In this document: positions 3,252 to 58,900 of the stretch, in pieces | How positions within the stretch are numbered: position 1 is the stretch's first letter | Layout of the letters: each line of letters opens with the position of its first letter | Assembly: GCA_036872755.1 (NCBI GenBank) | Contig: JAVHNS010000016.1 | Location: 1,153,249 to 1,217,248 of the forward strand | Reading direction: 5' to 3' | Origin: Orbilia blumenaviensis | Taxonomy: Eukaryota > Ascomycota > Orbiliomycetes > Orbiliales > Orbiliaceae | Length of the DNA stretch: 64,000 nucleotides | Notes under the pieces: generated by a model | The model's database searches: none | Told to the model about the DNA's origin: nothing | What the model saw: only the letters and a program-made list of their open reading frames with translations | Program-made: the position numbers and the translations under genes

Positions 3252-3587
3252 TGCCCAACTGCAGTATTGCAGGAGGGTTAAACCAGCGCAAGGCGCGATC
3301 CATACCCTACCAAAAAATATATTGTTTTTGGCGAACTTAAAGAAAAATTTTTTGAAATTTTCCCATACAAATTTGTATGGGGATTTTCCGGTCTTGGCAC
3401 TCTTGTGGTCTCATCCTGTCAAAACTGGGTTTTTGTCTATAAACTGAGTTTCATTTATAAACTGGGTTTTATCTTTAAAATTTAAACATCTTTTGGTTAT
3501 GAGTGAATATGCGCTATTATTATTAGTGGATTCAGATATGATCTAGATGCTGCAGTCGGGTTTGAGTGCTGCGCAGCGGCCTCCTTA
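3252..3587 (+). mobile_element. HEL-1, short Helitron-like non-autonomous element
   Basis: The left end TGCCCAACTGC is followed by the CTGC-AGTATT-GCAG type hairpin and GGAGGGTTAAA. The right end carries GCAGTCGGG, then the GCTGCGCAGC palindrome and a damaged CTCCTTAA in place of CTCCTAG. Near 3363 is the palindrome CCATACAAATTTGTATGG, shared by the family. At 336 bp it belongs to the short size class, which lacks the CACGTG module of the long class. It encodes no protein. Confidence 0.75.
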
Positions 3588-6543
3588 ATAAAAACAAAGA
3601 CAATATATATTTTATAATTTAAAATTATTTTAAAAAAATTACTAATTTTTTATATAAAAAAAAAATTATTATTTTGATAATGTTTGGAAAGATTTTATTA
3701 TTTATTATAATTTAAAATTTATTTCTATATAAATAATAATCTTAATTTTTATATCAGAATGATATTTTTATATTTATAAACAATAATAGTAAATTTATTT
3801 ATTTAATTTTTAAAAAAAATAAGTGATAAAAATTTTATTAATAATAAAAAATACAACTAATATAAAAAAAATATCTTTATTAAAATTAAATAAATTAAAG
3901 TAAGCTTTTTTTGTGATTATATTTATAAATAAAAAAAAAGTAATTTTAAAGAAAATCGAAAGAAATAATAAAATAAAAAAAAAACAAAAATAAGGATTTT
4001 TTATAATCAAACAATAATAAAAAATAAAAAAATTTTTAATTTACAACTTTAACTTAAAACAAACCTCAATAATAAAAGATTAAGAAAAAAAAATAAATAA
4101 ATAAATAAATAAATAAAAAAACAATTTTATTTAAATTATGAAATAATTATATATTAAATAACATATTATTAGATTTTTTATAAATATTTTATATTTAAAA
4201 AATAAAAATTTAAAATTAAATATTTTTTTTTAATTTTATATAAATTTTTTAAAATTTAAAATTAAATATTGTATAAATAATATAATATAAAAATAAAATA
4301 TATATTTTATAATATATTAATTTTAAAATTATTAATTTTAAAATGATTATATAAATGATTTACAATATTAAAACCTTTTATTTAAGATTATATGTAATAT
4401 TTAAAAAATTAAAATTAATTTTATTAAAAAACAATTATTATATAATAAAAATTAAAAATATTGGATTTTATAAAATTATTAAAAAAATATGAATAAAAAT
4501 ATTAAATAATAAATATTATTAAATTGATTTTTATATAACTTAATTTTTAATATAAATAAAAAAATTAAAATTAATTTATTAATAATAAAATTGATTTTAA
4601 TTAAAATTTTATAAAATTTAATAAATAAAAAAATTTTAATTTTTATGGTATAAATAATTTAAATATTATAATTTTAATTAAATAAAAAGAGTTATAATTT
4701 AAACTAAAATCATAATTCAAATTAAAACAAATTTGATATATAATATATATTTTTTAATAAAAAACTAATAAAAAAAAATCAAAATTATTTAATAAAAAAC
4801 TAATATTAATTTTGATAAATTATAAAAAATTTATATTTTTTTAAAATGATAAATAAAAAATGTTAATTTAAATAAAAATACTACTAAATAATTTTTTATA
4901 ATAATAAATAATATAATTAAAATAATATTTATTAAATTGTTAAAAAGTCAAATTATATTTAAAAATTTTTTAATATCATTCTTAATTACAATAAAAAATA
5001 AATTAAAATTAAAGAATAAAATTTGTTTTATATAAAATATTAAAATTGATTTTTTTAAATATATAAAAAATATATAAATAATAAAAAATAAAAATAAGAA
5101 TATTAATTATATATATATATAAATAAAATAATATAATCAAGAAAAATATATTAAATTTCATAAAAATTAGTAAACTATATATTAATAAAATTAAATTTAT
5201 TTAAATAATTTTAAACACAAACTATAAAAATAATAATATTCGTTAATAATTGTTTTAAAATAAACTAAAAAATTAAAACTGATTTTGAAGGTAAATCTAT
5301 TAAATAAAAAATATTAGTATATAAATTATTTTATAAAAAAAGTTTAAATTTAATAAAATTTAAATTATTTAAAGATTTAATTTATATTTTAATTTTAAAA
5401 AAAGTTAAATTATAAAAAAAAAAAAATTTCTTAATATATAAAATTTAAAAAAAAAAGAATTTATATATATAAATTTCAAAAAATAATATAAAATTTAAAA
5501 TATAATTAAAAAAATATTAATTATAATTAAAAATATAATAATTATAATTAAAAATATAATAATAATAAAGACTATATTTTTTATTAAAAATAAGTTTAAT
5601 TACACTCAATTCTTTCTAAAAAAAACATAAATAAAATTATTTAAAAAGATTAATTAATTATAAACAGTTAAAAATTAATTTTAAAAAATAATTTAAAATA
5701 AATAATTAAAAAATAAATATTTAAAATAATAATTATTAATTAATTTAAATAATTAAATTTAATATTATTAAAATTTCTTTTAATTTAAAAAAGAAAAAAA
5801 TTTAATTTAATAAAAAAAAGAAATATAATATTAAAAAAATTTAAATGAAATAAAAATTTTATAATTGTTATTGAGTTTAAACTTCGATAAATTAAAAAGA
5901 ATATTAAGAAAAGGGAAAAGATATATATAAATATTAATTTAAATAATTAAATTATTTAAATTTAGGTGATTTCTTATTAAATAAAAATAATTTATATATA
6001 ATGATAGAAATAATTAAACATAATAATAATTTATATTAAAAAGACATAATAAAATAAAAATTTAATATTTAAGAACTAAACAATATTTAATTTAAAATTA
6101 ACTTAATTTTAAATAATAAAAAAGTATTAAAATACAAATAACTATTTATAATCAAAATAAATTTCAAAAAAAAAAATATTTATAAAAAAAATCAATTATC
6201 AAAAAATATAAATAATATTTTGGTTTAAATTATATAAAAACTTATATTTTATACTAAATTTTAAAATATTAAAAAGTTTTTTAATTTTAATAATTATATT
6301 CAACTAAAATATATATTAAATAAATATTAAAATAGTAAGTATTTTTAAATATAATTTTAATTAAAATTAAAAAAAATATACATAAAATTTCTTGAAAAAT
6401 ATAAATAAAAAAATAAATATTTATATATAAATAATAATATTATTATATATATAAATAATTTTTTTATCTTTTTTAAATTATTTATTTTAATTTAAATTAT
6501 AAAATAAGTTTTGGTAAAAAATATAAAATAAAGGATTTAAATA
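3588..6543. other. AT-saturated DNA, no gene seen
   Basis: Almost pure A/T with scattered C or G and no sustained open frame. The minus-strand open stretch at 3810-4010 is a phenylalanine/isoleucine run expected by chance in such DNA. Probably an old element mutated beyond recognition; I found no clear partner for it in the window. Confidence 0.35.
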
Positions 6544-6720
6544 TGTAAGGGAGATACGTAACAGGCTTATAGCCGGGTTTGTCCGTACTGCTTTATAAAT
6601 AGAATATACGATGTGTTGCTATTTACACACACAATCAATTATTAATCATATAAACATAAATTTATATATATATTAATATATATATATATATACATATAAT
6701 ATTAAATTTATATTATTATA
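6544..6720 (+). repeat. 5' LTR of element X
   Basis: Starts TGTAAGGGAGATACG and contains GGCTTATAGCCGGGTTTGTCC and a TATA-like TTTATAAATA about 55 bases in. The last 26 bases align with the left LTR of Y at the same length, differing only by C-to-T or G-to-A changes. It ends TATA where the less decayed copy has TACA. At 177 bp it is slightly longer than Y's LTRs because of an AT dinucleotide expansion. No 5-bp duplication is visible, as expected if the other end is missing. Confidence 0.8.
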
Positions 6721-6868
6721 TATTACTAATATTATTTCTAAATTATTGAAAGAATTTTTATAATATATATTATTATATGTTTTAAATTTTATTATAAATA
6801 TTAGTTTAAAACATATTTAATTTTTAAAATTTATTTTTATTTAAAAAATTCATTTGTATGTATAAATA

Positions 6869-7199
6869 CTAGGAGGCCGCTGCGCAGCACTCAAACCTGA
6901 CTGCAAGATTTTGATCATATACGAAACTTGAAAGTGATAACAGTGTAAATTCTTTTATACTAAAATGAAGATATCACAAATGAAACTCAGTTTCGATGAG
7001 ACCATAAGAGTGTTAAGACTCAAAAACAATAATATAATTTACCAAGATTTGAAAATTTCATACAAATTTGTATAGGAAAAATTTTAGAAAATTTTTTTAA
7101 GTCAGCCAAAAATAACATATTTTTTTGGGATTTCCTAGCATGGACAACGCCTCGCGCGCTGGTTCATCTTTAACCCTCCTGCATAAATGCAGTCAGGCA
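6869..7199 (-). mobile_element. HEL-2, short Helitron-like element inserted in X
   Basis: On the minus strand it runs from GCCTGACTGC with hairpin loop ATTTAT to a right end of GCTGCGCAGC plus CTCCTAG, flanked by T. Sequence of X matching Y continues on both sides, which fixes the insertion. A CCATACAAATTTG-like central palindrome is present in degraded form. 331 bp, short class. Confidence 0.8.
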
Positions 7200-10272: not shown

Positions 10273-11106
10273 CTAGGAGGCTGCTGCGCAGCACTCAAAC
10301 CCGACTGCAGCATCTTGATTCTAAATCAAAATTGTATATATATTTTTTGAAATAAAAGAAAAATTAAATTATTATAATTTATAACAAAAATTATAATTAT
10401 ACTTAAATAATATAAAATAATCATTAATATAATAAAATAATTAATATAATATATTAATTAAAATAATAACTAATATAATAGTTAATATAATATAATAAGA
10501 TTTAATAATAATAATAATGGTTTTCAAGAAATTTTACATATGTTACATAATTATTTTTGATGTTAAAACTATATTTTTAATTTAATTTTTATTTATATTT
10601 AAAAGTTTTATAATGTTATTTTATATATGTCACATAATTATTTTACATATAAAAACTAAATTAAATTAAAATAAAATTAAATAAAAATTAATTAAAAATA
10701 TAGTTTTAATATTGAAAGTAGTTATGTAACTATGATTTTACTAAAAGTGACTTAATTAAAAAAAATAAAATAAATATAAAAATAATAACTAGAGAATTGT
10801 TTATTTATAGAAAGTTAGATAAAAGGTTAAAGAAGATTATATTAAAATACTAAAGTCATAAACTTAAAAATATAAAAATGATAAAAACTTTTATCAAAAT
10901 CAATTTTTAAATTTTATTAACAACTCTATGTTAAGCCCTTAAAATAATGCTAAGATTTTAAAAATCCTATATAAATTTGTATGGTAAAAATAAAATAAAA
11001 AAATCTCTAAGTTCGTCAAAAATAATATATTTTTTTGTGGAACTGGGTAGGATCGCGCCCTCGCGCTGGTTCAACTTTAACCCTCCTGCATAAATGCAGT
11101 CGGGCA
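10273..11106 (-). mobile_element. HEL-3, long Helitron-like element
   Basis: The plus strand opens CTAGGAGGCTGCTGCGCAGC and CCCGACTGCAGCATC (the right end inverted) and closes GCATAAATGCAGTCGGGCA (the left end inverted). Next to the right end is a run of 12-bp TTAATTATTATA-like repeats, then degraded CACGTG-module sequence and an ATACAAATTTGTAT-like centre. Flanks are T on both sides in element orientation. 834 bp, long class. Confidence 0.85.
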
Positions 11107-14343
<3,237 letters not shown>

Positions 14344-14702
14344 CTAAGAAACCACTGCACAACACTCAAACCCAACTACAACATCTAAATCATATCTAAA
14401 TCCACTAATAATAATAACACATATTCACTCATAACCAAAAAATATTTAAATTTTAAAAATAAAACCCAATTTATAAACAAAACTCAATTTATAAACAAAA
14501 ACCCAATCTCAACAAAACCACAAGAGTGCCAAGATTGAAAAAAATACTAAGACTTGAAAAACCCCATACAAATTTATATAGGAAAATTTTAAAAAATTTT
14601 TCTTCAAGTTTGCTAAAAACAACACATTTTTTAGCAAGTCTAATATAGATCACACCTCACACTAATTCAACTCTAATTTTCCTACAATACTGCAGTCAGG
14701 CA
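14344..14702 (-). mobile_element. HEL-4, heavily G-to-A mutated Helitron-like element
   Basis: Both ends are recognisable only after allowing transitions: CTAAGAAACCACTGCACAAC replaces CTAGGAGGCCGCTGCGCAGC, and the left end keeps CTGCAGTCAGGCA. Nearly all changes in the right-end third are G-to-A on the plus strand, in several sequence contexts. Central CATACAAATTTATAT remains. 359 bp, short class. Confidence 0.75.
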
Positions 14703-15655: not shown

Positions 15656-16462
15656 TGCCCGACTGCATTTATGCAGGAGGGTTAAAGTTGAACCAGCGCG
15701 CGAGGGCGCGATCCATACCAGATCTGACAAAAAATGTGTTGCTTTTGGCTAACTTAGAAAAAAAAAATTTTGATTTTTACCATATAAATTTATATAAAAT
15801 TTTGCAAATCTTAGCACTTTTTCCAATCTTAGTACTATTTTTCAAGTCTTAATAAAAATTGCTAAGAAATTTTAAAAATTAACTTTAATAAAAATTTTCA
15901 CCATTTTTGTTTTTTTAATTTTCCATCTCTAATATTTTAATATAACTTTTTTTAAATAATTATCTAGCTTTTCATAAGCCGCCATCTATCTATTTTCATT
16001 TTTTCTATTTTTTCTTTTTTTTTTAATTTTGTTATTTTTAGTAAAAACTAAATTATATGATTATTTTTGATATTAAAATTATTTTTCTTTGATTTTTATT
16101 TAATTTAATTTAATTTTTACATGTAAAATAGTTATGTAATATATATTAAAATAATATCATAAAATTTTTAAAATTAAATAAAAATTAAATAAAAATTGAA
16201 TAAAAATTAAACAAAAATAGTTTTAACATTGAAAATTGTCACATGATTACATATAAAAGTCATATTAAAATTATATTAATTATTATATTAATTATTATAT
16301 TAGTTATTATATTACTTTTTATATTAATTATTATATTAGTTATTATATTAAATATTATATTAATTTTTATAATAGTTATGATATTAAATATTATATTAAT
16401 TATTATTGATTTATAATCAAGATGCGGCAGTCGGGTTTGAGTGCTGCGCAGCAGCCTCCTAG
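15656..16462 (+). mobile_element. HEL-5, long Helitron-like element
   Basis: Starts TGCCCGACTGCATTTATGCA and ends with GGCAGTCGGG, the full GCTGCGCAGCAGC palindrome and CTCCTAG, followed by T. It holds the GATCCATACCAGATCTG block near the left end, a mutated CACGTG module and a 12-bp TTAATTATTATA array just before the right end. 807 bp. A 73-codon open frame overlaps its left end; it only reads through the conserved terminal sequence and recurs in other copies, so I do not call it a gene. Confidence 0.85.
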
Positions 16463-18327: not shown

Positions 18328-18436
18328 TACCCGACTGCAGTATTGCAGAAGGGTTAAAGTTGAACCAGCGCAAGGCATGATCTATATGAGATTTGCTAAA
18401 AAATGTGTTGTTTTTGGCGAACTTAGAAAATTATTT

Positions 18437-19243
18437 TGCCCGACTGCATTTATGCAGGAGGGTTAAAGATGAACCAGCGCGCGAGGCGTTGTCCATGCTA
18501 GGGGGTCCCGAAAAAATGTGTTGTTTTTAGCTGACTTAGAGATTTTTATTTTTTTTATTTTTGCCATACAAATTTGTATGGCATTTTGAAAATCTTGGCA
18601 TTACTTTCAAGTCTTGGCAAAAAATTGTCAAAAAATTTTAAAAATTTTTGAAAATTACCTCTGACAAAAGTCTTCACCGTTTTTGTATTTTTAAGTCTAT
18701 GACTCTAGAATTTTAATATACTCTTTTTTACCTATTTATCTAACTTCCTATAAGCGGACAGGTCTCTAGCTACTATTTTTATATTTCTTTTATTTTTTTT
18801 AATTAAGTCACTTTTAGCGAAAATGTCATCACGTGACTATTTTCGATGTCAAAACTATTTTTATTTAATTTTTATTTAATTTTATTTTAATTTAATTTAG
18901 TTTTTGCATGCAAAATCGTCACGTGACACAGAATAAAAATGACGTCACAAAATTTTTAAAATTAAATTAAATGAAATAAAATTAAATAAAAAATAGTTTT
19001 AACGTCGAAAATGGTCACGTGATCACACACACAAAAGTTATATTAAAATTATATTAATTATAATATTAGTTATTATATTATTTATTATATTAAGTATTAT
19101 ATTATTTATAATACTAATTATTATATTCATTATAATAATACTAATTATTATATTAGTTATTATATTAATGATTATATTGATTATTATTCATTTAAAATCA
19201 AAATGCTGCAGTCGGATTTGAGTGCTGCGCAGCAGCCTCCTAG
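18437..19243 (+). mobile_element. HEL-7, long Helitron-like element nested in HEL-6
   Basis: One of the least decayed copies. In order: left end TGCCCGACTGC and hairpin; palindrome CCATACAAATTTGTATGG near 18564; CACGTG at 18830, 18920 and 19016; GCATGC and a TGACGTCA site at 18940; a 12-bp TTAATTATTATA-type array; then GCAGTCGG, GCTGCGCAGCAGC and CTCCTAG. It sits between the two halves of HEL-6 with T on either side. No coding capacity. 807 bp. Confidence 0.9.
18825..19025. promoter_or_regulatory. Inverted-repeat module with CACGTG, TGACGTCA and GCATGC sites
   Basis: In HEL-7 the segment opens TCACGTGACTATTTTCGATG and closes with the near-inverse CGTCGAAAATGGTCACGTGA, with AT-rich arms and a central GTCACGTGAC and TGACGTCA. 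The whole segment could fold on itself. CACGTG and TGACGTCA are the classic bHLH (Cbf1/USF-like) and bZIP (CREB-like) core sites. Whether anything binds here is unknown. The module recurs in long HEL copies and, in a shorter form, in elements C1-C3. Confidence 0.5.
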
Positions 19244-20001
19244 TTTTAATTTTTATTATATAAATTTTTATGGGATTTTTTAAACCTTAGTATTATTTTC
19301 AAATTTTAATAAAAGTTATTAAAAAATTAAAAAAATTAACTTTGATAAAAGTCTTTCCCATTTTTGTTTCTGTAAGTCTACATTTCTAAAATTGTAATAT
19401 AATTTTTTTTTAATTTTTTATTTAGAATTAATTACATACACAAATTTATAATTACTTTTTTAATATTTTTTTTGTCTTTTTTTATTAAATCACTTTTAGC
19501 TAAAATTATAAATATAAAATAAATTTTTTATTTAAATTTTAAATATAATTTTAATTTAATTTAGTTTTTGCATACAAAATGGTCACGTAACACATAGAAA
19601 ATCTGACTTTAAAATTCAAAATTATTTTCAATATATTTTAATTATTGTAATTAAAATTTTTTATTTTTGCATGCAAAATGGTCATGTGAGACATACAAAA
19701 TCTCACTTACAAATTCAAAATTTATTTTCAAATTTATTTTGATTATTTTAATTATTTTAATTTAATTTTAGTGGTGGTATGCAAAATAGTCACGTGATAA
19801 ACACCAAAACTATTTATTTTTATTTTTATTTTTATTTTATTTCTATATTTATTTTTAATCATTTAATTTAATTTAATTTAATTTAATTTAATTTAATTTA
19901 TATTAATTTAATCTAATTTAATTCAATTTCAATTAATTTGATTTCTTTTAATTTAATTAAATTCATTTTGTTAATTATATATATTTTTATATATATACAA
20001 A

Positions 20002-20482
20002 CTAGGAGGCTGCTGCGCAGCACTCAAACCCGACTGCAGCATCTTGATTTTAAATCAATAATATATAATAATTAATATAATAATTAATATAATAACTAAT
20101 ATAATAATTAATATAATTTTCAAAAATAACTTCGATGTAACTTTTTTTGTATATAACCATTTTCGATGTTAAAACTATTTTTTATTTATTTTTTATTTTT
20201 TTTTTATTTAATTTTTATTTAATTTAATTTAATTTTAAAACTTTTGTAACATCATTTTGAAAATGTGTCACGTGACCATTTTCCATACAAAAACTAAATA
20301 CAATTAAAATAAAAAAATTAAAAAAAAAAATAAAAAATATAGTTTTAACATCGAAAATAATCACGTAACCTTGATTTCACTAAAAGTGACTTAATTAAAA
20401 AAAATATAAAAAATATAAAAATAATAATTATAAACCTGTTCACTTAATCAAAGTTAAATAATAGATTAAAGAAGATCATATT
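20002..20482 (-). mobile_element. HEL-8, right-end arm (interrupted by element Y)
   Basis: Opens CTAGGAGGCTGCTGCGCAGC on the plus strand, followed by the 12-bp array and the CACGTG module (CACGTGACC near 20268). It stops within GAAGATCATATT, where an intact copy such as HEL-3 continues into TAAAATACTA. That missing part is found at 29534-29807, on the far side of element Y. The last five bases, ATATT, are the target duplication. Confidence 0.85.
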
Positions 20483-20644
20483 TGTAATGATATAAGCTCA
20501 GTGCTATACGTATATATGTGTACTGGTATGTATGTAGATCTGTGTCTATATGGTTGATGATTGATTGTGTAGATAGTAATACATTGTATTTATAAAACAG
20601 TATGGACAAACCCAGTTATGAGCCTGTTATGTATATCTTTTATA
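20483..20644 (-). repeat. 3' LTR of element Y
   Basis: 162 bp. Its inner end GTATATCTTTTATA equals the right LTR's GTATATCCCTTACA with three C-to-T changes. It keeps ATTTATAAAACAG (TATA-like on the minus strand) and GGACAAACCCAG. This is the better preserved LTR of the pair in its first 100 bases. Confidence 0.85.
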
Positions 20645-23600
20645 TTTTAACTTATTATAGTGGTTATAGGTGGTGTAATATTTTGTATAATTTATGAAAT
20701 GTATAAATTAATTAATTTTATAATATAGATTTAAATCATACTAATAAAATTGAATAACTAATCTTTATTATTATAAAATATAATATTAATTTATATCTTT
20801 ATAATTTTATAACTTTTTCAAAAAAATATAAGAAAATTTATAAATAATAAAAAACTTTATTAGATTTATTAAACTTTTAAGTTTTAATTTTAATAATTTC
20901 ATACTTATACACATATATTACAAACTATAAAATATTAGATTATATATAAAAAAAATATTTTAAAATTTTAATAATTAATATAATTATAATGTTATTAACA
21001 CAAATTATATATTTATATATATAGATTTTATATATTATAATTAATATTAATTATTTATATATTATAAAAATTATATATATAAATTATTATATAAATTATT
21101 ATATAATTTTATATAATTTATAAATATTAATAATTAAAATTATACAATTTTATAATTTTTATAATTTCTGTGATATAAATTTTGTAAATATTATTTATAA
21201 TTTTAAATTATATAATTTTATAATTAATATAATATATTTTAAATTTTTATAATATATATAAAAATAAATATTTGATTAATAATTTTTATTTTTATATTTA
21301 CAAAATCTTTTTTTTTTTTTATTATTTTATATGAATATAAATTTTCTATATTTGTAATTTTAATTTTTATTAAAATAATTTTTATTTTTATTTTTTATAT
21401 TATTTAATTATTATAATTATTATTATTGATAGGTGTAGATATAATAATAATAGTGTTAATAATGTAGAAGGTGCTAGTAATGTTTTTAAAATCACAAGTA
21501 TTTTATATATTAATAATATTATAAATAGTATTAATAATGATAATATAATTATTAATATTGATATTTCTATAATTTTAATAATAATTAATAATTTAGATAA
21601 ATTAATATATTTTAATATAATTATTAATAATCTTAATTATTATAAAATTTAAGAAATATATTTATTATATAAAAATAAATATAAAATATATTTAAAATAA
21701 ATTATTATTTTTTATATTATAATTTTATAAATATAATTAATTAAATTTTATAAAATCACAATATTAAAAATTTTGTAATAAATAAAAATCTTAAATATAA
21801 TTATATAATTTATAATTTTTTTAATTTATTATTATATATAATAATATATAATATTATTAAATGATTATTTTATAAATTTATAATTATATAATTAATATAT
21901 TAACTAATATATAATATAATATAATATTTAATAATCTTTTTTTTAATAACAATTATATTATAATTAAAATTTTATAAAAATTTATTAATATTATAAATAC
22001 AATAATATTTTAAGTTTTTTATTTATTTATATATTTAAATATAATAATTTTAAATATTAATTTAATATCTACTTTTGTAATATCTACTTTTATCATTTTA
22101 TTTATAATTAAATTTTTTTTTAATTTTTATTATTATATTTATTATAATTATAATTATTTTAATTATTTTAATTATTTTTATTATTAATTAATAAATTATT
22201 AATATACTTAATATAATATAAATTTTATTAAATATAATAAATAAAAAATTAATTTTACAAAATTTGTAAAATAATATTATTTACATTTATATAAAAATCA
22301 ATATATAAATTATTTTATAATTTTATAAATAAATTATTGTTAATTATAATATATAAATTATCAAATTTTTATATTATATTTAAAATAATTTTAAATTTTA
22401 TTTAATTTTTATAAAAATTTATTTTTTATTTCATTTTTATTAATTTTATTTATTTTAAAATTTAAAAATTTTAATTTTTTTAATTTTATATATACAAAAA
22501 TAAAATTTATTTTTATTTTTTTAATTTTAAAATAGTTTTATATTACTCAATAAATAATTATATATTTATAAATATAAAAACTTTATTATAGTATTAATTA
22601 TAAAATTTTTAAATTTTAAATATATAAATTTAAAAATACATTTCTTAAATTTATTATATATTTAAAAATATTAAATATTATAATATTTAAATTGCTATTA
22701 ATTTTCATTTATAATATTTATAATTATAATTAAAATACTATTTATATATAATATTATAAAAAATAAAAATATAAATATATTAAATATAAACTATATAAAT
22801 ATAAATTTTAATAATTTTTATAATTATATATTTTTATAATTTATAAAATTTAAGATAATTATTTTAACTTTAATAAAAAATTTTATAATAAATTTTTATA
22901 ATTTGGTTAATTATAAAATAATATTATTTACTAAATAATATATATATTTTAAAATAAATTTATAAATTATTAATTCTAAATTATAAATTTATATTTAATT
23001 TATATTATTATATTTTTTAAATATTAATAATAATTATTTTTTTTTATTATTATTCTAATTATAATATAAAACATATTTATAAATTATATTTAAATATTAA
23101 TATATTTATATTATAATTTTTTAATATTTTTTAATAAATATATAAAAATATTATTTTAATTCAATTATAATATAAATTAAATTAATTTTATTATTTTAAA
23201 TAATATATATAAGAGATTCTAATATATTTTAATAAAATTATATATATATTTTTTTTAATAATGATTATTTATTATTTTTTAATAATTATATATTTAAATT
23301 TATAAAACTTAATTTTATTTTTTAATTAAATATATTAAATTAATTAAGTATATTTTTATAATATTTTTTTTAGGTAATTTATATAATTTTATTAATACAA
23401 TTACATATAATTTATAATTTTAAAAATTATTTAATTTTATTTATATTTTTAATTTTATATTATAATATAAAATTTTTTTTTATTTTACATATTATAAAAA
23501 AAATGTTTATAATTATAAAAAAATTATTAATATAAATAATAATTATTATATTATTTATAATATAAAAACATTTATTTACTAAATTTATTTTTATTTTAAA

Positions 23601-23701
23601 TAAAAAATTTTAATTTAAAAAAATATTATATAAATTATTATTTTATAAATATAAAATTTAATTTAATTTATATAAAAATTTAAATAGTAAAAATATTTTC
23701 A
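20645..23701. other. Interior of element Y, left part
   Basis: AT-saturated remains of the 3' half of the retrotransposon. No readable protein motif. A purine-rich or tRNA-complementary priming site next to the LTR cannot be recognised after the mutation load. Confidence 0.4.
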
Positions 23702-23978
23702 CTAGACGGCTGCTCCGCAGCACACAAACCCGACTGACTGCCCATCATCCACATCTATGTTGCGTGTTGTGTGTTGTGTTGATTTCGCTTTTACAGTATT
23801 GGGTGGAGCGCCGAGCGCGCCAAGACTTGAAAATCCCCATACAAATTTGTATGGGCGACACTTGTTGAAAATTTTTAAGTATGCCAAAAACAACACATTT
23901 CTTGGATTGACTTTATAGGAAAACTCCATAACCCTCGCACTCGGGAGTTCAATTTCAACCCTCCTTGTCAGTCGGGTA
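23702..23978 (-). mobile_element. HEL-9, GC-richer variant Helitron-like element nested in Y
   Basis: The plus strand starts CTAGACGGCTGCTCCGCAGC and ends CCCTCCTTGTCAGTCGGGTA. The right-end hairpin is GCTGC-TCC-GCAGC, with a different loop from the main family. It keeps CCATACAAATTTGTATGG at about 23837 and AAAACAACACATTT. It has a run of GTGTTGTGTGTTGTG-like sequence and far more G and C than its host, so it is probably a recent arrival. 277 bp. A 75-codon minus-strand frame covers most of it but shows no domain. Confidence 0.75.
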
Positions 23979-24472: not shown

Positions 24473-24799
24473 CTCTTGAGGAAAAGTGTGCTCAAGAAAA
24501 ACCGTGAAACAACCGTTGAAACAACCAGCAAACCGTTTTTCGGTTTTCAACGGTTGGGCTACATGAATCGGCGGTGAACTAACAAACTTAATAATTTTAA
24601 ATTTATAGTTAACCAAAATTTCACCATAGAATAATTGTTGAAAACTAACTAATCAATTATTGCTACGGTTGTTATTACAATTATTGAACGATTATTGTAT
24701 GATTGTAACACAATTATTACACGATTATTCTTTATTAATAATTTTATTAATTTACGGTGATAACAACACAAAATTCACAACATTTAACTTAATAAATTA

Positions 24800-37750: not shown

Positions 37751-38999
37751 CTCTTGAGGAAAAGCATGTTCTAGCAAGACGGTTGCAAAATGGTCAGAAA
37801 ACCGGCAAATGGTTTCGTGGTTGCAAGACAGTGATATGGCGGTTATATAACAATTATATGATGGTTATACAGCAGTTATATGATAATTGTATGATGGCTG
37901 TATGGCGGCTATATGATGGCTGTATGACAGCTATATTACGGTGGCATAACAGTGGCGCAATTGTTATATTATTTAAAAACAATGGACAAACAATTTTCTT
38001 AATAATTTTCTGACAATTTTTAACAGTTTTCTAATAGTTTTTTAACGGTTTTATTGTGGTTTTATTAATTTACGCTGATCACAACACAAAATTCACAGCA
38101 GATTACTTAATAGATTAAGAGCTAACTATATAAGTGATGCAATTAATAGAACAACTAGTAGAATAGCTAGTAGAACAGCTAGTAGAACAGCTAGTAGAAC
38201 AGCTAGTAGAACAGCTAGTAGAACAGCTAGTACGGCAGCTAGGGAGACAGCTAGTGAGACAGCTAGTGAGACAGCTAATACGGCAGCTAATACAACAGTT
38301 AGCAAAGCAGCTAGTGAGGCAGCTAGTGGAGTACTCAGCAAGTTGGCAGCTAGCACAGCAGCTAGCACAGCAGCTAGCACAGCAGCTAGTGAGGCAGTTA
38401 GCTAGTGAGATGGTAGAATGATAGATTAAAAGAGAAGTTGAATGTAAAATAATCAATTAGTTAAAAGTAATTTCAAAAAAATTTTCAAAGTCATTTTTTG
38501 TATGTGTCATGTGACCAATTTGCATGTGAAAACAAAATTAAATTCAAATTAAATAGAAAAGAAAGTTAAGGTGGCGAAAATGGTCACGTGACCATTGTTT
38601 TAATCTATTTAATTTATTTAATTTATTTAATTTATTTAATTTAATTAGTTATTAAGATTATAGTAATGTGATTGTTGTGAAAATGATTCGTAAACTATTA
38701 TAAAATGATTTGCAAATTATTATTAAAACGATTGTTGAAACTGTAACAAAACTGTAACAAAACTGCTAGAAAATTGTTAAAAAATTGGTAGAAAATTGTT
38801 ATAAAAACAGTTTTTTTATTATTTGAAAAACGGTTTTGAGAATAGTAAAAAAATTATGAAAAAACTAGCAAATCGTTGCCAAACTGTTTGTAAAATAGTG
38901 AAAAAATTGAAAAACGGTTTTGAAAACGGTGTGGCAACCCGCAAACCGTTTTCACCCCGTTTGCCGCCGGTCTTGCAACCCCACCCTTTGTCTCAAGAG
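37751..38999. mobile_element. Element C2, TA-flanked inverted-repeat element
   Basis: Ends CTCTTGAGGAAAAG and CTTTGTCTCAAGAG with TA on both flanks. Near the left end is a run of GGTTATATGATGGCTGT-like repeats (about 37840-37940). Both ends have AACGGTTTT-type motifs. The middle has the GCTAGTA array and one CATGTG plus one CACGTG site. 1249 bp. Open frames inside (37783-38013, 38823-39050 and two on the minus strand over the array) show no domain. Confidence 0.85.
38130..38405. repeat. 12-bp tandem array AGCTAGTAGAAC in C2
   Basis: About seven consecutive near-identical 12-base units, then diverged ones (GGCAGCTAGTGAG type). Period 12 keeps frames open on the minus strand, giving serine/cysteine and valine/leucine peptides that I regard as artefacts. 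Confidence 0.85.
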
Positions 39000-39409: not shown

Positions 39410-39588
39410 ATAACTATATTAATTATTATATTAATTATTATATTGATTATTATATTAATAACTATGTTAATTATTATATTAGTTATTATATTAATGACTA
39501 TATTAATTATTATATTAATTATTATATATTATTCATTTAAAATCAAGATGCTGCAGTCGGCTTTGAGTGCTGCGCAGCGGCCTCCTAG
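39410..39588 (+). mobile_element. HEL-11, 3'-end fragment of a Helitron-like element
   Basis: Only the 12-bp array (TTAATTATTATA type) and the right end GATGCTGCAGTCGG, GCTGCGCAGCGGCCTCCTAG are present on the plus strand. It directly follows the left Z repeat and directly abuts HEL-12 in the opposite orientation. Confidence 0.7.
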
Positions 39589-40315
39589 TATATAATAATC
39601 AATATAATCATTAAAATAATAACTAATATAATAATTGATGTAAGAACTAAGATAATAACTAATATAATAAATAATATAATAATTAACATAATAATTAATA
39701 TAATAACAATCAATATAATAATAAATATAATAATTAATATAATTTTAATACAACTTTTGTATGTGATCACATAACTATTTTCAACGTCAAAACTACTTTT
39801 TATTTAATTTTATTTAATTTTATTTAATTTTAATTTAATTTGATTTGAAAAAACCTGTGACGTCATTTTAATTTATGTGATCACGTGACCATTTTGCATG
39901 CAAAAACTAAATTACATTAAAATAAAATTAAATAAAAATTAAATAAAAAGTGGTTTTGAAGCTGAAATTGTCACGTGATCTGATTTTCACTCAAAGTGAC
40001 AAAATAAAAAAAAGGATTTTATAGACAGGGCGGCTCGTAAAGAGCTAGGTAAATACTTAAAGAAAATCATACAAAAATACTAGAGACACAGACTCAAAAA
40101 AAGAAAAACGGTGAAGGTTTTTGTCAGAGGTAATTTTAGAAATTTATTAGCAATTTTTTGCCAAGACTTCAAAAATCCCATACAAATTTATATGGCAAAA
40201 ATCAAAAGTTTTTTCTCTAAGTTGGCCAAAAACAACACATTTTTTTCCAGATCTGGTATGGATCGCGCCCTCGCGCGCTGGTCCAACTTTAACCCTCCTG
40301 CAACGCAGTCGGGCA
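39589..40315 (-). mobile_element. HEL-12, long Helitron-like element lacking its 3' terminus
   Basis: The minus strand begins TGCCCGACTGCGTTGCAGGA (plus strand 40296-40315 inverted), with GAGCGCGCGAGGGCGCG-like sequence, the CATACAAATTTATATGG centre, CACGTG sites (about 39874 and 39973), a GTGACGTCA site and the 12-bp array. Where the inverted CTAGGAGG right end should lie, the plus-strand end of HEL-11 is found instead. The pair thus forms a tail-to-tail junction. Confidence 0.75.
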
Positions 40316-41529: not shown

Positions 41530-42314
41530 TGCCCGACTGCGTTGCAGGAGGGTTAAAGTTGAACCAGTGCGCGAGGGCGTGATCCATACCAGATCTGATA
41601 AAAAATGTGTTGTTTTTGGTTGATTTAGAGAAAAATATTTTTTTATTTTTGTTATACAAATTTGTATGGGATTTTTGAAGTTTTGGTACTATTTTCAAGT
41701 TTTGGCAAAAAATTGCTAAGAAATTTCTAAAATTATGTCTGATGAAAGTGTTTATCGTTTTTGTTTTTTTAATTTTATATCTTTAGTATTTTTATATGAT
41801 TTTTTTTAATTATTTATCTAGCTTTTTATGAGCTGCCTTGTTTATAAACCTCTTTTTTTTTTTTTTTTTATTTTTTTTTATTTTTGTTATTTTTGGTGAA
41901 AATTAGGTCACGTGATTATTTTCGACCTTAAAACTATTTTTTTTAAATTTTTTATTTAGTTTTATTTTAATTTAATTTAGTTTTTGTATGCAAAATGGTT
42001 ACGTGACACACATTAAAATGACGTTACAAAAATTTCAAAATTAAATTAAATTAAAATAAAATTAAATAAAAAATTAAATAAAAATAGTTTTGACGTGGAA
42101 AATTGTCACGTGATCACATACAAAAGTCACATCAAAATTATATTAATTATTATATTAATTATTATATTAGTTATTATATTAAGTATTTGATTAATTGTTA
42201 TAATTATGATATTAGTTATTATATTAAATAATATAGTAATTATTATATTAGTTATTATTGATTTATAATCAAGATGCGGCAGTCGGGTTTGAGTGCTGCG
42301 CAGCAGCCTCCTAG
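41530..42314 (+). mobile_element. HEL-13, long Helitron-like element (left arm of an inverted pair)
   Basis: Starts TGCCCGACTGC with hairpin CTGC-GTT-GCAG and ends GGCAGTCGGG, GCTGCGCAGCAGCCTCCTAG, then T. It holds the CACGTG module (near 41908 and 42107) and the 12-bp array. Many C's of the plus strand are replaced by T. Both strands show open stretches over the left end without a domain. 785 bp. Confidence 0.88.
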
Positions 42315-42563: not shown

Positions 42564-43370
42564 CTAGGAGGCTGCTGCGCAGCACTCAAACCCGACTGCC
42601 GCATCTTGATTATAAATCAATAATAATTAATATAATATTTAATATAATAACTAATATTATAATTATAACAATTAATCAAATACTTAATATAATAACTAAT
42701 ATAATAATTAATATAAAAAGTAATATAATAACTAATATAATAATTAATATAATAATTAATATAATTTTAATATGACTTTTGTATGTGATCACATGACAAT
42801 TTTCAACATCAAAACTATTTTTATTTAATTTTTATTTAATTTTTTTTAATTTTAAAAATTTTGTAACGTCATTTTAATGTGTGTCACATAACCATTTTGC
42901 ATGCAAAAACTAAATTAAATTAAATAAAAATTAAATAAAAATTAAAGAAAAATAGTTTTAACATCAAAAATAATCACATGACCTAATTTTCACTAAAAGT
43001 GATAAAATTAAAAAAAATAAAAAAAATAGAAAAAATGAAAATAAACAGACGACAACTCATAAAAAGCTAGATAATTACTTAAAGAAAGTTATATTAAAAT
43101 ACTAAAAACAGAGAATCAAAAAAACAAAAACGGTGAAAACTTTTGTCAAAATCAATTTTCAAAATTTCTTAGCAATTTTTTATTAAGACTTGAAAATAGT
43201 GCCAAGACCCGCCAAAATTTGTAAAATCCCATATAAATTTATATAACAAAAATCAAAAATTTTTTTCTCTAAGTCAGCCAAAAACAACACATTTTTTGTC
43301 AGATCTGGTATGGATCGCGCCCTCGCGCGCTGGTTCAACTTTAACCCTCCTGCATAAATGCAGTCGGGCA
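42564..43370 (-). mobile_element. HEL-14, long Helitron-like element (right arm of an inverted pair)
   Basis: The plus strand starts CTAGGAGGCTGCTGCGCAGC and ends GCATAAATGCAGTCGGGCA. Array, CACGTG-module remnants and palindrome are in the usual order, read on the minus strand. G's on the plus strand are preferentially lost. 807 bp, exactly the length of HEL-5 and HEL-7. Confidence 0.88.
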
Positions 43371-44880: not shown

Positions 44881-46192
44881 CTCTTAAGGAAAAGAGTGGT
44901 GCAGGGCAACCGTAAAACAGCCGTTGCAAAACCAGCAAACCATTTTTCGGTTTTCAGCGGTTATATGATAGTTAATCTTTTGTAAGTTAATCAATTTTAA
45001 CTGTTATTTAATAGTTAAATAACTAGATTATATTGTTGAATAACTATTGTAAATTATTGGCAAATTATCAAATTAATTACTGTTATAATTATTGAACAAT
45101 TGTTATATAATTATAGTATTATATAATTGTTATACTATTATTATACAATTTTATTAATTTATGGTAATTACAATACAAAATTTACAACAGATCACTTAAT
45201 AGATTAATAATAAAATAATTAATAAAATAATTAATAGAACAGTTAATAAAATAGCTAATAGAATAGTTAATAAAATAGTTAATAAAACAACTAATATGGC
45301 AACTAGTATGGTAGCTAAGATAGTAATTAGTAAAACAATTAGAAAGGTAGCTCATAAAGAATTTAGCATATTAGTAGTTAGTATGGCAATTAGTACGGTA
45401 GTTATTATGGCAGCTAGCATGGTAGTTAGCAAAATATTAGTAAGGTAGTTAGTGGAGGACTTAGTAAGTTAGTAACTAGCATGGCAGCTAGTAAAGCGAC
45501 TAGTGGAGTACTTAGTAAGTTAGTAGGTAGCATGGCAGTTAGTTAGTGAGGTAGCTGGTTTGTGAAATAGTAGAATAATGATAGATTAAAAGAGAAGTTG
45601 AAGGTTAAGTAATAAATTAATTAAAAATAATTTCAAAAATAAATTTCAAAATTATTTTTTTATATATATTATGTGATTAATTTATATGCGAAAATTAAAT
45701 TAAATTGAAATTAAATAAAAAAAAAGAATTTTATTATCGAAAATAATCACATGATTGGTTAATAAAATTTATAATTAAAAAAATTAAAAGAATTAAAAAA
45801 ATTAAAAAAATTAAAAAAATTAAAATAATTAAAATAATATAAAAAACTGTTTTAAGAACCGTAGCAGCAACCATTAGAAAATTATAATTTTATAATAACA
45901 AAAATTAATAAAAATTAATAATTAAAATTGTTATATAATTATTGTAAAACAATTGTTAAACTAACAAAAAATAATTGAAAAAATGGTTTTTTTAATAGAT
46001 TGTTATCAATTATTAATATAGTTTTTAAATAATTTTCATATTATGAATTCATAATTTGATAATTATTATAAAATTATTAATAAATTTGCTACATAGCAAT
46101 TATCACAACCATAAATTCACAATAGCTAAACTAACAATAAACCACCCAACCGTTATCTATTAGTTGTTTAACCTCCAACTCTGTCTTAAGAG
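44881..46192. mobile_element. Element C3, TA-flanked inverted-repeat element
   Basis: Ends CTCTTAAGGAAAAG and CTCTGTCTTAAGAG, each with one G/A or C/T change from C1, flanked by TA. The left part keeps CAACCGTAAAACAGCCGTTG, and the middle has a decayed GCTAGTA array (45210-45545). The CACGTG positions read ATGTGATT and CACATGATT, so the module is degraded. 1312 bp. It is the most decayed of the three C copies. Confidence 0.8.
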
Positions 46193-46333: not shown

Positions 46334-46995
46334 TGCCCGACTGCATTTATGCAGGAGGGTTAAAGTTGAACCAGCGCGAGGGCGCGATCCTACCCAGACT
46401 TGTTAAAAAATGTGTTGTTTTTGGCGAATTTAAACAAAAAATTTTTCAAATTTTTCTATACAAATTTATATAAGATTTTTGAAGTCTTGGTATTATTTTC
46501 AGGTTTTGGTAAGAATTTGCTAAAAAATTTTCAAAAAATTTGAAAATTACTTTTAATAAAAGTTTTTATTGTTTTTGCATTTTTAAGTTTATGACTCTGG
46601 TCTTTTAATATGATTTTTTTTAACTTTTTGTCTAACTTTTTATAAGTGAACAGGTTTTTAGTTACTATTTTTATATTTTTTTTAATTTTTTTAATTAAGT
46701 TATTTTTAGCGAAAATGCAATTATGTGACCATTTTCGATGTCAAAACTAATTTTTATTTAATTTTATTTTAATTTAATTTAGTTTTGGCATGCAAAATGG
46801 TTACGTGATATATATAAAAAATAACTTGAAAATTTTAAAAAATTGAAATTAAATTAAAATAAAAATTAATAAAAAATATAGTTTTAACGTTGAAAATAGT
46901 TATGTGATATATATAAAATCTTATTATACACAATATTATTGATTTTTAATTAAGATGCGGCAGTCGGGTTTGAGTGCTGCGCAGCAGCCTCCTAG
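46334..46995 (+). mobile_element. HEL-15, Helitron-like element with a shortened 3' array
   Basis: Starts TGCCCGACTGCATTTATGCA and ends GGCAGTCGGG, GCTGCGCAGCAGCCTCCTAG, then T. It has the usual order, but the 12-bp array before the right end is almost absent, which accounts for its 662-bp length. Confidence 0.85.
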
Positions 46996-48040: not shown

Positions 48041-51000
48041 TTATCTTTTTTTTTAAAAAAAATTCCTAAAAAAAAAATTTTTATATAAAATTTTCTTATA
48101 CATAAAAAATATAAAAAAATTAAATAAAAAATTTTTATATAAAATTTGTTTATAAAATTTTATTGTATAAAAAAATTGTTTAAAAAAAATTTATATATAA
48201 AAATTTTTATATTTAAAAATTTAATTTTTATAATTATATTATATAATTATATAATTAAAATTAAATATAAATAATTATAATTTATATTATAATTAAATTT
48301 TAAAATTTAAATTATAAAATATTTTTTTATATATATAAATAAATATTAAATCTTTTATTTTAATTATATAACGAAATATAATTTAAAAATTTAAAAAAAA
48401 ATTAAAAAATTATATTTAAATAAAATAAAAAAAGGTTATTTTTTTTAAGTAATTTAAATTAAAAAATTTAAAAATTACAATTTTATATTTTTATTATATT
48501 ATAAATAATTATTTTTGTATTATATTAAAAAAAAATATTAAATATAAAGTTTATTATAAATAAAATAAAATAAAAAAAATATAATATAATTTTTTATAAA
48601 TAATTTTTTTTTTATTTTTTTTATTTTATAAAATATTTTTAATTTAAAATTTTTAATAAATTATATTGTAGAAATTTAAAATAAAAAATTTAAAAAATTA
48701 AAAAAAACTTTTATTTAATATAAAATAGTATATCAAAAAATTATTAAAAATTAAATAAAATTTATAAAATTTTTAATTAAATTTAATATTATTATAATTA
48801 AATTAAAATAATAATTTATTAAAATTTTAATAATTATATAAAAATATTGAAAATTTTTTTTTTATAAAAAATAAAAAATTATAAAAAATAATATAATATT
48901 TAAAAATAATTTAATTATTAAAAAAAAAATTAATAAAAATTTATTAATATTTAATAAAATATTTAATTTTTTTTATAATATTTTAGTAAATACAATAAAT
49001 TTTTTTATTAAATAAAATAAAAATTATTTTATATTTTCCATAAAAAATTTTCTTTAAAATATTATTTAAAATTTTAATTAATTTTTTATTATATATTCAT
49101 AATTTTTTATTTTTAAATTAAATCATATTTTATTATTTTATTATAATTTATATTAAATTATTAATTTTAATAATTCATAATATTACTTTATCAATATAAT
49201 TTTTACACAATTATTTATTAACATTATTAAAATATAAAATTTTATTAATTAAAAAAATAAAATATCTAAAAAAAATTAAAAAATAATTAAATAAATAATA
49301 TTATAAATATTTATTTAAATTATATATCTATAAAAATAAATATTTATAAAAAATTCATAAATATAAAAATTAATTAAAGAAAAAAATTATATTTTTATAA
49401 ATTAAAAATTTATAAAATATATTAATTTTAATTTTTTTTAAATTTTTTTTATTTTTATTTAAATACAAGAATATTAAATTAATAAAATAAATTTTTATTT
49501 TTAAAATAATTCTATATAATTTATAATAAAATATTTTTTTTTAATTATTAAAAATTGTTTTTTAAATTATAAAAAACAATTTAACAAATAAAATATTTAT
49601 TATTATTATTAAATTTATTAAAAGTTTTTTTAATTTTATATTTTATATAATTATTATATTTAATTTTAATTTTATTTAAATTTTTTTTAAATTTTAAAAA
49701 AACTTTTTCTAAAATTAAAATATAAAATATTTTATATATTTATATTAATTTAAATATATTAAATTTAAAATAATATTTTTTAAATTTTTTTTTAATTATA
49801 TATAAATTAAATTTTTAAAAATTAAATTTTTTATTAAAATATTTAATTTTTAAATTTTATATAAACAAATATATTTTATTTTTTTTTTTAAAATTTAAAA
49901 TTTTTTTTTATTATTTATTATAATAATAATTTATTTTTTTTTATAAAAATTAAAAATTTTTTACAAAAATATTATAAATATTTTTTATTAATTTTATATA
50001 TTTTTTAATTTTAAAAACAATTTTTTTTAACATAAAAAAAAAAAAATAATTTTAAATATTTATTTTTTTAATATTTTATATAAAATATATTTAATAATTA
50101 AATATTAAAAAATATTATAAATAAATTTTATTATAAATAAAAAAAATATTTAATTATTTTAAATATAATTAAAAAAATTTTAAAAATAAATTTCAAAAAT
50201 TTAAATAAATTTTTTAAAAATTTTATTTATTTAAATATAATTTTTAATTATAATATTTAATTTAATATTAATTTAATTTATAATTAATTATTAATATTTA
50301 TTTATAAAAAAAAATTATAATTAAAAATATTTTTTTATTAAATTTTATATTTAAAAAAAACATAATTATAATAAATTTATTATAATTTTTTAATTTTTTA
50401 TTAATTATTTTATAAAATAAAAATAATAATTTTTATTAATTTATTTATAATAATTAATATTTTATTATATAATTTATTAATAAAAAAATTTTATATTAAA
50501 AATATTTTTTATATAAAATTATAAATAATAATTTTAAAAAATATATTTAATATATTATATAATTAAAAAATTTTATAAAATTTATATTAATTAAACTTAT
50601 TTTTATAATAAAAATTATAAATTTTAATATATTTTTTAATTTATTTTTTTATTTAAAATTAAAAATAAATTTTTATAATAAATTTTTAAATATAATCAAT
50701 TTTAAAATAATTATAAATTAAATAATTATAATATAAAAAAATAATTTTTTTTTAAAATTTTTTAATTAAAATATAAAATAAATTTTAAAATATAATAATT
50801 TTATTAATTAATTTAAAATAAAATAATATATTTTTTTTTTTTAAAATTTATTATATAATAAAATTTTATTTATAAATTTTAAAAATTTTTTATTAAAAAT
50901 TATTTTTAATATTATATTTTATTAAATTTAAAAATTTATTAATAAAAATCTAATTTTTAATATTATTATATTTAAAAATTATTTTTTTATTAAATTTAAT

Positions 51001-52854: not shown

Positions 52855-53191
52855 TGCCCGACTGCGTTGCAGGAGGGTTAAAGTTAAACCTCCGCACGAA
52901 AGCGCGATCCATATTAAATCTGGCAAAAAATGTGTTGTTTTTAGTTGATTTAGAGAAAAAAAAAAAAATTTTTTCTCATACAAATTTGTATGGGATTTTG
53001 AAAGTTTTGGTAAAAAAACTGGTCTTGGCACTCTTGTGGTCCTGTTGAGACTGGAACTAAATCTGTTGGTTTTGTATATAAAATTTTAATTTTTTAAATC
53101 TTTAAGAGAATATGTGTTATTATTATTTTGGTGTGTAATTTGATTTGATAGTGTTGTAGTTGGGTTTGAGTGTTGTGTAGCAGCCTTCTAG
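52855..53191 (+). mobile_element. HEL-16, short Helitron-like element nested in G2
   Basis: Starts TGCCCGACTGC with loop GTT and ends TTGGGTTTGAGTGTTGTGTA, CAGCCTTCTAG, then T, with C-to-T decay of the palindrome. It keeps CATACAAATTTGTATGG at about 52978. G1 has the same surroundings without it: TATAATTAAATAAAAATATA near 30543. The difference is the element plus nothing more than one shared T. 337 bp. Confidence 0.9.
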
Positions 53192-56916: not shown

Positions 56917-57950
56917 GAAACTTATTATTAAAATATATATTTCAAGAAAATATATTTTATATCTTTATTTATATTTTTTAATAATTAATTTTATTTTATA
57001 TTACAGTATATTATTTGTTGTAGTTTTATATTTAAATATGTATCATATACTTATTATTTTTATATTTAATAAAATTATATATATTTTATTTTAGATTTAA
57101 TTGATTTTAAAAAGTTTTAATTTATTTAATATAATTTTTAATTAATTGACATTATTTAATAATTTAAAATTTTTTTTTAAAATTCTAAATTTTATAAAAA
57201 TATAAATATTTTAATTTTTTATAATATATATTGTTAATTAAAATAAAATAATTTTAATTTTACTTTTTTATTTAATAATTTTTTTAAAATATCTAAAATT
57301 AAGTTTATTATTTTAATCTAATTTTAAAATAATATAAAATAATTTATCAATATTTAAATTACTTAATAATATTTATAATTTATTTAACGTTTATAAATTA
57401 AATTAAGAAATATATAATATAATTTGTAAATTTTTTTTTTTTATTATTATTTAATATATTTTTTATTTTAATTTAAGTTGTAGTAATTTTTTATTTTATA
57501 TTTTAATCTATAATAATAATTTAAATAAAATTTTTTTTATTAAAGATTTTTATTTTTAATTGATTTTTTAATTTAATTTTTAATTTTAATTAAGTTTTTG
57601 TAATATTTATAAATTAAAATATAATAAATATTATTTAATTTAAAAAATATTTTATAAAGTTTTTTTATATAAAAAACAAATTTTTAAATATTTTAATATT
57701 ATAAATTATAAATATTTATTTTTTATTTAAATTTTAAATTTTAGTTTATTTTATAATTTAAATATAATTAATAAATATTTTTTTAAACTTTTAATTATAA
57801 AAATCTTTTATTTTTATATTATTTTAAAATAATAATATATATATAATATTTAAAAAAATATGAAGTATATTTTAATTTTATATTATTTAATATTTTAAAT
57901 AATATTTTAAAAATTTATAATTTATTTTTATTTATTTTATTATTTATAAT
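56917..57950. other. AT-rich DNA right of G2, ending in repeat E
   Basis: The first five bases are the right GAAAC duplication. The segment 57810-57950 matches 34430-34567. No gene seen. Confidence 0.45.
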
Positions 57951-58100
57951 TGTCACGGCCAGCTATACTAGGTATGTCTTGGTATGTCAAACATAAACCT
58001 GTTTAACTCTGGGTTCAGCTTACAAATCAGATTTATAGTATAAATATTCAGATAACAAATTTAAAAGCAAACTAAGTTAAAACCAGATTGTTTGCAGATA
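57951..58100 (-). repeat. LTR-like terminus related to the G-type LTR, well preserved
   Basis: Starts TGTCACGGCCAGCTATACTA. Its first about 53 bases are the inverse of the G2/G1 LTR end, but with both C's and G's intact. After that it departs from G2, so it is either a related LTR family or a rearranged copy. It interrupts repeat E directly after TTTATAAT and is itself interrupted by HEL-17. The rest of the element was not found. Confidence 0.6.
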
Positions 58101-58900
58101 TGCCCGACTGCAGTATTGCAGGAGGGTTAGAGTTGAACCAGCGCGAGGGCGCGATCCATACCAGATCTGCAAAAAAATGTGTTGTTTTTGGCGAACTTCC
58201 AGATTTTTTTTTTTTGATTTTGCCATATAAATTTGTATGGGATTTTTCAAGTCTTGGCACTATTTTCAAGTTTTGGCAAAAAGTTGCTAAGAAATTTTGA
58301 AAATTGACTTTGACAAAAGTCTTTCCTATTTTTGTTTCTTTAAGTCTATGTCTCTAAAATTTTAATATAGTCTTTTTTGACTTTTTATCTAGATTTGATT
58401 AAGCACACAGGTCTATAAATACATTTTTTTTATTTTTTTTATTTTTTTTTTTTAAGTTACTTTTGGCGAAAATCATAGGTATAAAATATTTATATTTTAA
58501 TTTATTTAGTTTTTGCTTGCAAAATGGTTATGTGATATATATAAAATCTGACTTGAAAATTTAAAATTTATTTTTATTAAATTTTTAGTTTTTGTATGCA
58601 AAATGGTCACGTGACACATACAAAATCTGACTTCAAAATTCGAAAATTATTTTTTACTTTATTTTAATTTTTTAATTATTTTTATTAAATTTTTAGTTTT
58701 TGCATGCAAAATGGTCACGTGATACACACAAAAACTATTTGTATATATATTATTTTTATTTTTATTTTTATTTTTATTTTTATTTTTATTTTTGATTCAT
58801 TAATTTAGTTTAATATTGTTTAATCTAATTTAATTTCAATTCAATTCCAACTCAATTTTATAATTAACTATATTTTTATATCTATCATTAAATATATAAT
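58101..58900 (+). mobile_element. HEL-17, Helitron-like element of the HEL-6 subfamily
   Basis: Starts TGCCCGACTGCAGTATTGCA and keeps GAACCAGCGCGAGGGCGCG, GATCCATACCAGATCTGC and a CATATAAATTTGTATGG centre. It then carries three spaced units of TTTTTGCATGCAAAATGGTC type at about 58502, 58587 and 58696, the latter two with CACGTGA, and a TTTTTA hexamer run at 58748-58790. No right-end CTAG was found; the end near 58900 is an estimate from HEL-6. Open frames on both strands over the left end show no domain. Confidence 0.7.

Follow-up and report, generated by a model that had tools for sequence, protein, structure and literature searches.

A dispersed repeat family in AT-rich DNA

We analysed a 64,000-nucleotide stretch of the Orbilia blumenaviensis genome (the window; bases 1,153,249-1,217,248 of contig C16, in an assembly of 42.46 Mb and 23 contigs), which carries 17 members of a repeat family that we call HEL: 12 two-ended copies of 277-834 bp, two copies split by later insertions and three single ends. 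Judged by its ends and insertion junctions, HEL is very probably a family of non-autonomous Helitron2-type rolling-circle transposons. At 11.5% GC, the window as a whole is a block of very AT-rich DNA. GC content was 6.7-23.4% in 28 stretches around HEL matches and 6.7-16.9% in ten further stretches around ends of a second subfamily, in contrast to 43.5-50.8% at nine loci recovered by a helicase search. Such AT-rich blocks may be centromeres.

An earlier note on this DNA had described a dispersed family with about 17 copies in the window, and the counts bear this out. With one mismatch allowed, the left end TGCCCGACTGC matched at 15 places in the window, against an expectation of 0.00 from 100 shuffles. 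Genome-wide counts of end patterns, all of them lower bounds, gave at least 156 exact left ends (94 + 62) versus 10 (6 + 4) for the reversed pattern, and at least 136 right ends (GCAGTCGGGTTTGAGTGCTGCGCAG, up to two mismatches; 78 + 58) versus none (0 + 0) for the reversed pattern. An Rfam scan of the window gave no matches.

Profiles of both ends were then run on 257,030 bases and gave 77 left and 73 right matches. After exclusion of nine left matches that lack the 5′ tip, left ends were each joined to the first right end that followed within 12 kb on that strand. This gave 61 two-ended copies and left 7 left and 12 right ends unpaired, some of which were cut off by the edge of a sampled stretch. 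Eighteen pairs measured 277-362 bp, 32 measured 616-1128 bp and 11 measured 1.27-7.7 kb. The two size classes previously noted (about 277-360 and 660-835 bp) are therefore both real but do not cover the whole range. All but one of the 61 copies were shorter than 2.7 kb; the longest pair, 7.7 kb on C7, has an opposite-strand HEL and other repeats nested inside it.

Asymmetric inverted repeat and stem-loop sequences at the ends

The 61 two-ended copies follow the plan TG-CCCGACTGC ... GCAGTCGGG-27 nt-end. This plan contains a 9-nt asymmetric inverted repeat, in which CCCGACTGC lies 2 nt from the left end and its reverse complement GCAGTCGGG lies 27 nt before the right end, very close to the position of about 28 bases given before. 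All nine positions pair within one element in 44 of the 61 copies. Every copy begins with T; the start is TG except in two copies with TA, and is usually TGCCC, with TGCCT in three. At the 3′ terminus 58 of 61 copies carry CTAG, in agreement with the proposal that the right end fits the CTRR end of Helitrons.

Both tips contain stem-loop sequences. A fold CCC..CTGC-loop-GCAG..GGG is possible at the left tip. Its common variants have the loops ATTTAT, AGTATT, GTT or TTT, and the sequence indicates tandem G.A mismatches between the two short stems. A 5′ hairpin involving the inverted repeat was predicted in all three left ends that were folded. The right tip of the main type reads GCTGC-GCA-GCAGC followed by CTCCTAG; its 5-bp stem is constant, and the loop varies between GCA, GAA and GGA among subfamilies. 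The second subfamily has the left end CCCGACTGA and mostly the right end TCAGTCGGG, with loop GAA or GGA; 12 right ends matched its own pattern without mismatch and six more with one. Since these loops break the self-complementarity of the sequence, only the stem is kept. G-N-A triloops form unusually stable DNA hairpins; a literature search on GNA loops returned nothing.

Insertion before T without target duplication

For analysis of the target, element boundaries were taken as T...CTAG. The base following the element was T in 60 of 61 copies (background 0.475), and the base preceding the insertion was A in 51 copies and T in the other 10. An uninterrupted sister site, defined by at least 85% identity and at least 60 bases on each side, was recovered for 24 of the 61 copies, as compared with 0, 4, 4 and 2 of 61 when right flanks were shuffled. 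Twenty-two of these 24 sites aligned without gaps within 12 bases of the junction, and the other two had gaps of 1 and 3 bases in A or T runs. HEL thus inserts before T, mostly at A^T, with neither duplication nor loss of target bases.

Examination of the flanks gave the same picture: equal stretches of four bases or more were observed in 7 of 61 copies versus about 5 expected from shuffled flanks, so that the test for longer target duplications at intact copies was negative. The earlier statement that nothing is duplicated beyond a T holds as regards the absence of duplication, but the T itself is accounted for otherwise. Because the element carries its own first T, an empty site has one T and an occupied one has two, the first base of HEL and the target T. 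An insertion point with T on both sides (TT) occurred only in the minority of copies preceded by T (10/61).

Probable recent movement of AT-rich copies

As the earlier note had it, copies share their ends and differ inside: the similarity extends over 150-179 positions in most full left ends and over some 60 positions in right ends, and interiors and sizes differ. A pair of 1937-bp copies, one on C4 and one on C6, has only 4 differing bases (99.8% identical), and a 355-bp pair, on C2 and C6, has one (99.7% identical). The flanks of these pairs are 78-84% identical over 100 bp, within the range of random flank pairs, for which the median identity is already 78% over 100 bp and the 95th percentile 87%. 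In addition, an empty sister site exists elsewhere for one of the two copies in each pair. These two observations indicate that the near-identical copies are insertions and not parts of a duplicated segment. As far as sequence comparison can tell, the near-identity points to recent movement.

In the 2-kb class, six of ten tenths of the interior average 5-8% GC over eight copies. Since near-identical copies share such interiors, the interior was already AT-rich at the time of copying. Older copies have decayed: among 66 right-end changes counted in 58 copies, 52 go from GC to AT. Repeat-induced point mutation as the sole cause of this decay was rejected, because the GC-to-AT changes are not confined to CpA.

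HEL copies and other repeats in the window

Seven two-ended copies lie on the plus strand, at 3252-3587 (336 bp; 3′ end decayed to CTTA, next base A), 15656-16462 (807 bp), 18437-19243 (807 bp), 26593-26937 (345 bp; empty sister site on C6), 41530-42314 (785 bp), 46334-46995 (662 bp) and 52855-53191 (337 bp; empty sister site within the window at about 30401-30700, 97%). Five lie on the minus strand, at 6869-7199 (331 bp; empty sister site on C1), 10273-11106 (834 bp), 14344-14702 (359 bp; decayed), 23702-23978 (277 bp; second subfamily, empty sister site on C6) and 42564-43370 (807 bp). Single ends comprise a right end at 39529-39588 (plus) for which no left end was found, a left end at 40157-40315 (minus) to which no right end was assigned and a left end at 58101-58279 (plus) for which no right end was found.

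The two split copies are part of a nest. An older plus-strand HEL of the 2-kb class begins with its 5′ end at 18328-18436, is interrupted by the copy at 18437-19243, continues at 19244-20001 (631 of 733 aligned bases identical to a copy at C6:2426725) and resumes at 29808-30879 beyond a 9.8-kb interruption (838 of 958 aligned bases identical); no right end was found for this third piece. The interruption holds a minus-strand HEL of about 750 bp in all, which therefore itself lies within the older HEL, with its 3′ part at 20002-20482 and its 5′ part at 29534-29807, split by an insertion of long terminal repeat (LTR) type.

That LTR-type transposon occupies 20483-29533 (minus strand, 9051 bp), starts with TGTAAGGG and ends with TTACA; it has a second LTR copy at about 20483-20644 and a 5-bp duplication, AATAT. 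It contains two younger HEL copies. Its start has seven further matches in the 257 kb; related starts lie at window position 6544 (plus) and on C1, C4, C5 and C6.

Several tandem repeats were also observed. A GC-richer minisatellite with CAGCTAG-type units and a 39-bp period lies at 24794-25287, 38138-38448 and 45238-45562. A related array is present inside a 2638-bp HEL copy at C7:2390482-2393119, so a HEL may have captured the minisatellite. An array of about 10 copies of an 80-bp unit spans 1936-2966, and tandem modules of 79-108 bp with TGCATGCAAAATGGTCACGTGAC lie at 58497-58793 and 19560-19754 and also inside other HEL copies. A long inverted repeat in pieces occupies 48610-49511 and 63022-63925, its arms being 84-94% complementary and 13.5-14.4 kb apart.

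Search for an autonomous partner

The earlier note had proposed a genome search for a copy with HEL ends and a Rep/helicase gene; none was detected. Searches with PIF1 (PF05970) and Pif1_2B (PF21530) each placed two genes above the cut-off, and we read these as host helicases; a 935-aa PIF1 reading frame on C7 corresponds to TWF730_011372 (100% identity over the aligned 97%). Their recovery indicates that the search was able to detect such a helicase in this genome. The Helitron_like_N model (PF14214) gave no candidate in the genome and no signal in control genomes either. A typed Rep motif searched genome-wide and three typed Rep blocks searched in the 257 kb gave no match, both without a positive control. 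Heavy GC-to-AT decay would hide an old Rep-helicase copy from such searches. HEL matches lie near the ends of several contigs (C1, C2, C6 and C7), so a partner may lie in unassembled sequence.

The 9.8-kb minus-strand pair (29807 to 20002), at first a candidate full-length element, proved to be the roughly 750-bp HEL split by the LTR-type insertion, and gave no Pfam match in three pieces and three minus-strand frames with stops read through, the plus strand not being scanned. An apparent tandem array on C23, with right ends about 7 kb apart, was also discarded: one 8-kb stretch contained an ordinary HEL, and similarity between neighbours was 68% over 335 bp. In this AT-rich DNA, alignments with identities of about 63-70% are noise and were excluded from use.

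Comparison with known Helitrons

According to PMC3627910, Helitron2 elements begin with T; their 5′ asymmetric terminal inverted repeat (ATIR) lies 0-2 nt from the end as part of a 5′ hairpin, their 3′ ATIR immediately precedes a hairpin and lies 20-30 nt from the 3′ end, and most non-autonomous copies show no target duplication. HEL agrees in its repeat (9 nt, within the 8-15 bp of Helitron2, at 2 and 27 nt from the ends), in its predicted 5′ hairpin, in its 5′ T (61/61) and in its junctions (22/24 free of gaps). It also resembles Helitron-1N1_CRe of Chlamydomonas (PMC3627910), with copies near 650 bp that share a long 5′ part and a short 3′ part.

Judged by the terminal motifs reported for the FoHelis, HEL is nearest in end sequence to FoHeli3-5 of Fusarium oxysporum (PMC5148889), which start with TGCCT, end with CTCCTGT and encode a Rep-helicase in 9-11 kb. 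TGCC and CTCCT are shared, HEL having TGCCC at the start and CTCCTAG, then T, at the end; both also have a 5′ hairpin, predicted in HEL, and an inverted repeat that lies some way inside the 3′ end. The FoHelis differ in their longer repeat (13-16 bp versus 9), in the lack of a reported 3′ hairpin in the accessible text and in their size and coding capacity, nearly all HEL copies being below 2.7 kb. Two possible double 5′ ends of FoHeli type were encountered. Left ends 109 bp apart (18328 and 18437) turned out to be one HEL inserted in another, while a second-subfamily HEL at C7:2394580-2395195 carries another left end, decayed, about 295 bp further in and is possibly a double 5′ terminus as in the FoHelis.

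Helentrons and their HINE/DINE-1 relatives (PMC4067079) share with HEL the subterminal inverted repeats, a palindrome near the 3′ end and short non-autonomous forms. They differ in a TT or T-rich target and in the fused AP endonuclease of the autonomous partner, and mite HINEs in repeats of 12-15 bp versus 9 nt in HEL. The earlier reading of HEL as Helentron/Helitron2 with HINE forms is thus upheld for the Helitron2 ends; a TT target is not the rule (A precedes 51/61 copies), and membership of the Helentrons in particular could not be demonstrated. HELPO1/2 of Pleurotus ostreatus (PMC4289320) resemble HEL in a T[C/G] start, a CTRR-type end, AT insertion, a subterminal 3′ hairpin (putative in HEL) and absence of duplication, but they have a Rep-helicase, and the accessible text mentions neither an ATIR nor a 5′ hairpin. 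No description of the HEL family was found among the papers listed for Orbilia and Arthrobotrys, most subscription papers and preprints lying outside the search.

Weighing the interpretation

Several observations weigh against assignment to Helitron2. An autonomous Helitron2 partner would encode a Rep-helicase of the Helitron2 clade; for HEL nothing was found beyond the two genes read as host helicases, in Rep searches that had no positive control. The Chlamydomonas target is TTTT^T/C (PMC3627910), in contrast to the A^T and CTAG of most HEL copies, which are Helitron1 traits; TTTT^T/C is, however, a property of described members and not part of the definition of Helitron2. The predicted folds were also less clear than the stem-loop sequences. 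Relative to shuffles, left ends gave z values of -2.34 and -1.56 for two main-type variants and +0.26 for the second subfamily, and right ends -0.27, -0.55 and -0.15. The main-type right end has a minimum-energy fold other than the 5-bp stem; the stem with its GNA loop appeared in both second-subfamily right-end folds, with no z below -0.55. The claim of hairpins at both ends therefore stands for the sequence at each end, but folding is not uniformly better than in shuffles. Finally, of eight complete copies of the second subfamily, six show the paired change in the repeat, while two (L062 and L064) keep the GCAGTCGGG (GCAG) right half, which weakens strict compensation.

The same Helitron1 traits raise the alternative that HEL consists of non-autonomous canonical Helitron1 elements, with the inverted repeat and 5′ hairpin as a family peculiarity. 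CTAG (58/61) fits CTRR, the target is A^T (A before 51/61, T after 60/61), a 3′ hairpin sequence is present, and a TG start has a precedent in Pleurotus HELPO (PMC4289320). Helitron1, though, starts with 5′ TC and has no inverted repeat and no 5′ hairpin, both listed in PMC3627910 as Helitron2 features that it lacks, and HEL has kept both in two subfamilies; we consider this alternative unlikely. HEL could instead be mobilized as a single strand by another enzyme, be it a Y1 HUH transposase (IS200/IS605), a serine or tyrosine recombinase (IS607, Cryptons) or an unknown one, which would suit the stem-loop sequences at both ends, the absence of duplication and the failure to detect a Rep-helicase. 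The details of the HEL ends fit Helitron2 as described (PMC3627910), and we hold mobilization by such an enzyme to be very improbable. Elements that are short, gene-less and numerous and carry a 9-nt inverted repeat might also be miniature inverted-repeat transposable elements (MITEs), cut and pasted by a DDE transposase. Yet the repeat is asymmetric (2 versus 27 nt from the ends), the fixed-length target duplication of DDE/MITE elements was not found, flank matches in 61 copies did not exceed those of shuffled flanks, junctions were free of gaps in 22 of 24 cases, and in the window a 5-bp duplication does accompany the LTR-type insertion. On ends and junctions, a MITE origin is the least probable of these explanations.

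For Helitron2-type elements as we propose, movement would require a Rep-helicase from another source: a gene in sequence that the assembly lacks or has collapsed, a copy since lost or decayed, or a type that the models miss. The enzyme would nick at the 5′ T and peel off one strand; peeling would stop at the 3′ hairpin and CTAG, and the freed strand or circle would be inserted at A^T. Pairing of the 5′ inverted repeat with its 3′ copy may set the end point, as proposed for Helitron2 (PMC3627910).

Implications

Taken on its sequence features, HEL mixes two end types, a Helitron2 end plan with Helitron1-like A^T insertion and CTAG. So far, Helitrons with Helitron2-type ends are described from only some of the filamentous fungi, and HEL offers many exact junctions, with 61 two-ended copies, 24 of them with an empty sister site. 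These junctions suggest A^T as the target site for TGCC...CTCCT-type ends, which the authors of the Fusarium study could not establish (PMC5148889). A bolder view, which we hold to be unlikely, is that HEL represents a separate fungal Helitron lineage with Helitron2 ends and a Helitron1 target, moved very recently by a Rep-helicase that is unrecognised or outside the assembly; it would re-amplify near-pure-AT DNA and so feed AT-rich, possibly centromeric, blocks. Copies that are 99.8% identical and have mostly 5-8% GC in their interior show that even AT-degraded DNA can be copied and moved, a point of relevance to the growth of AT-rich blocks in fungal genomes.

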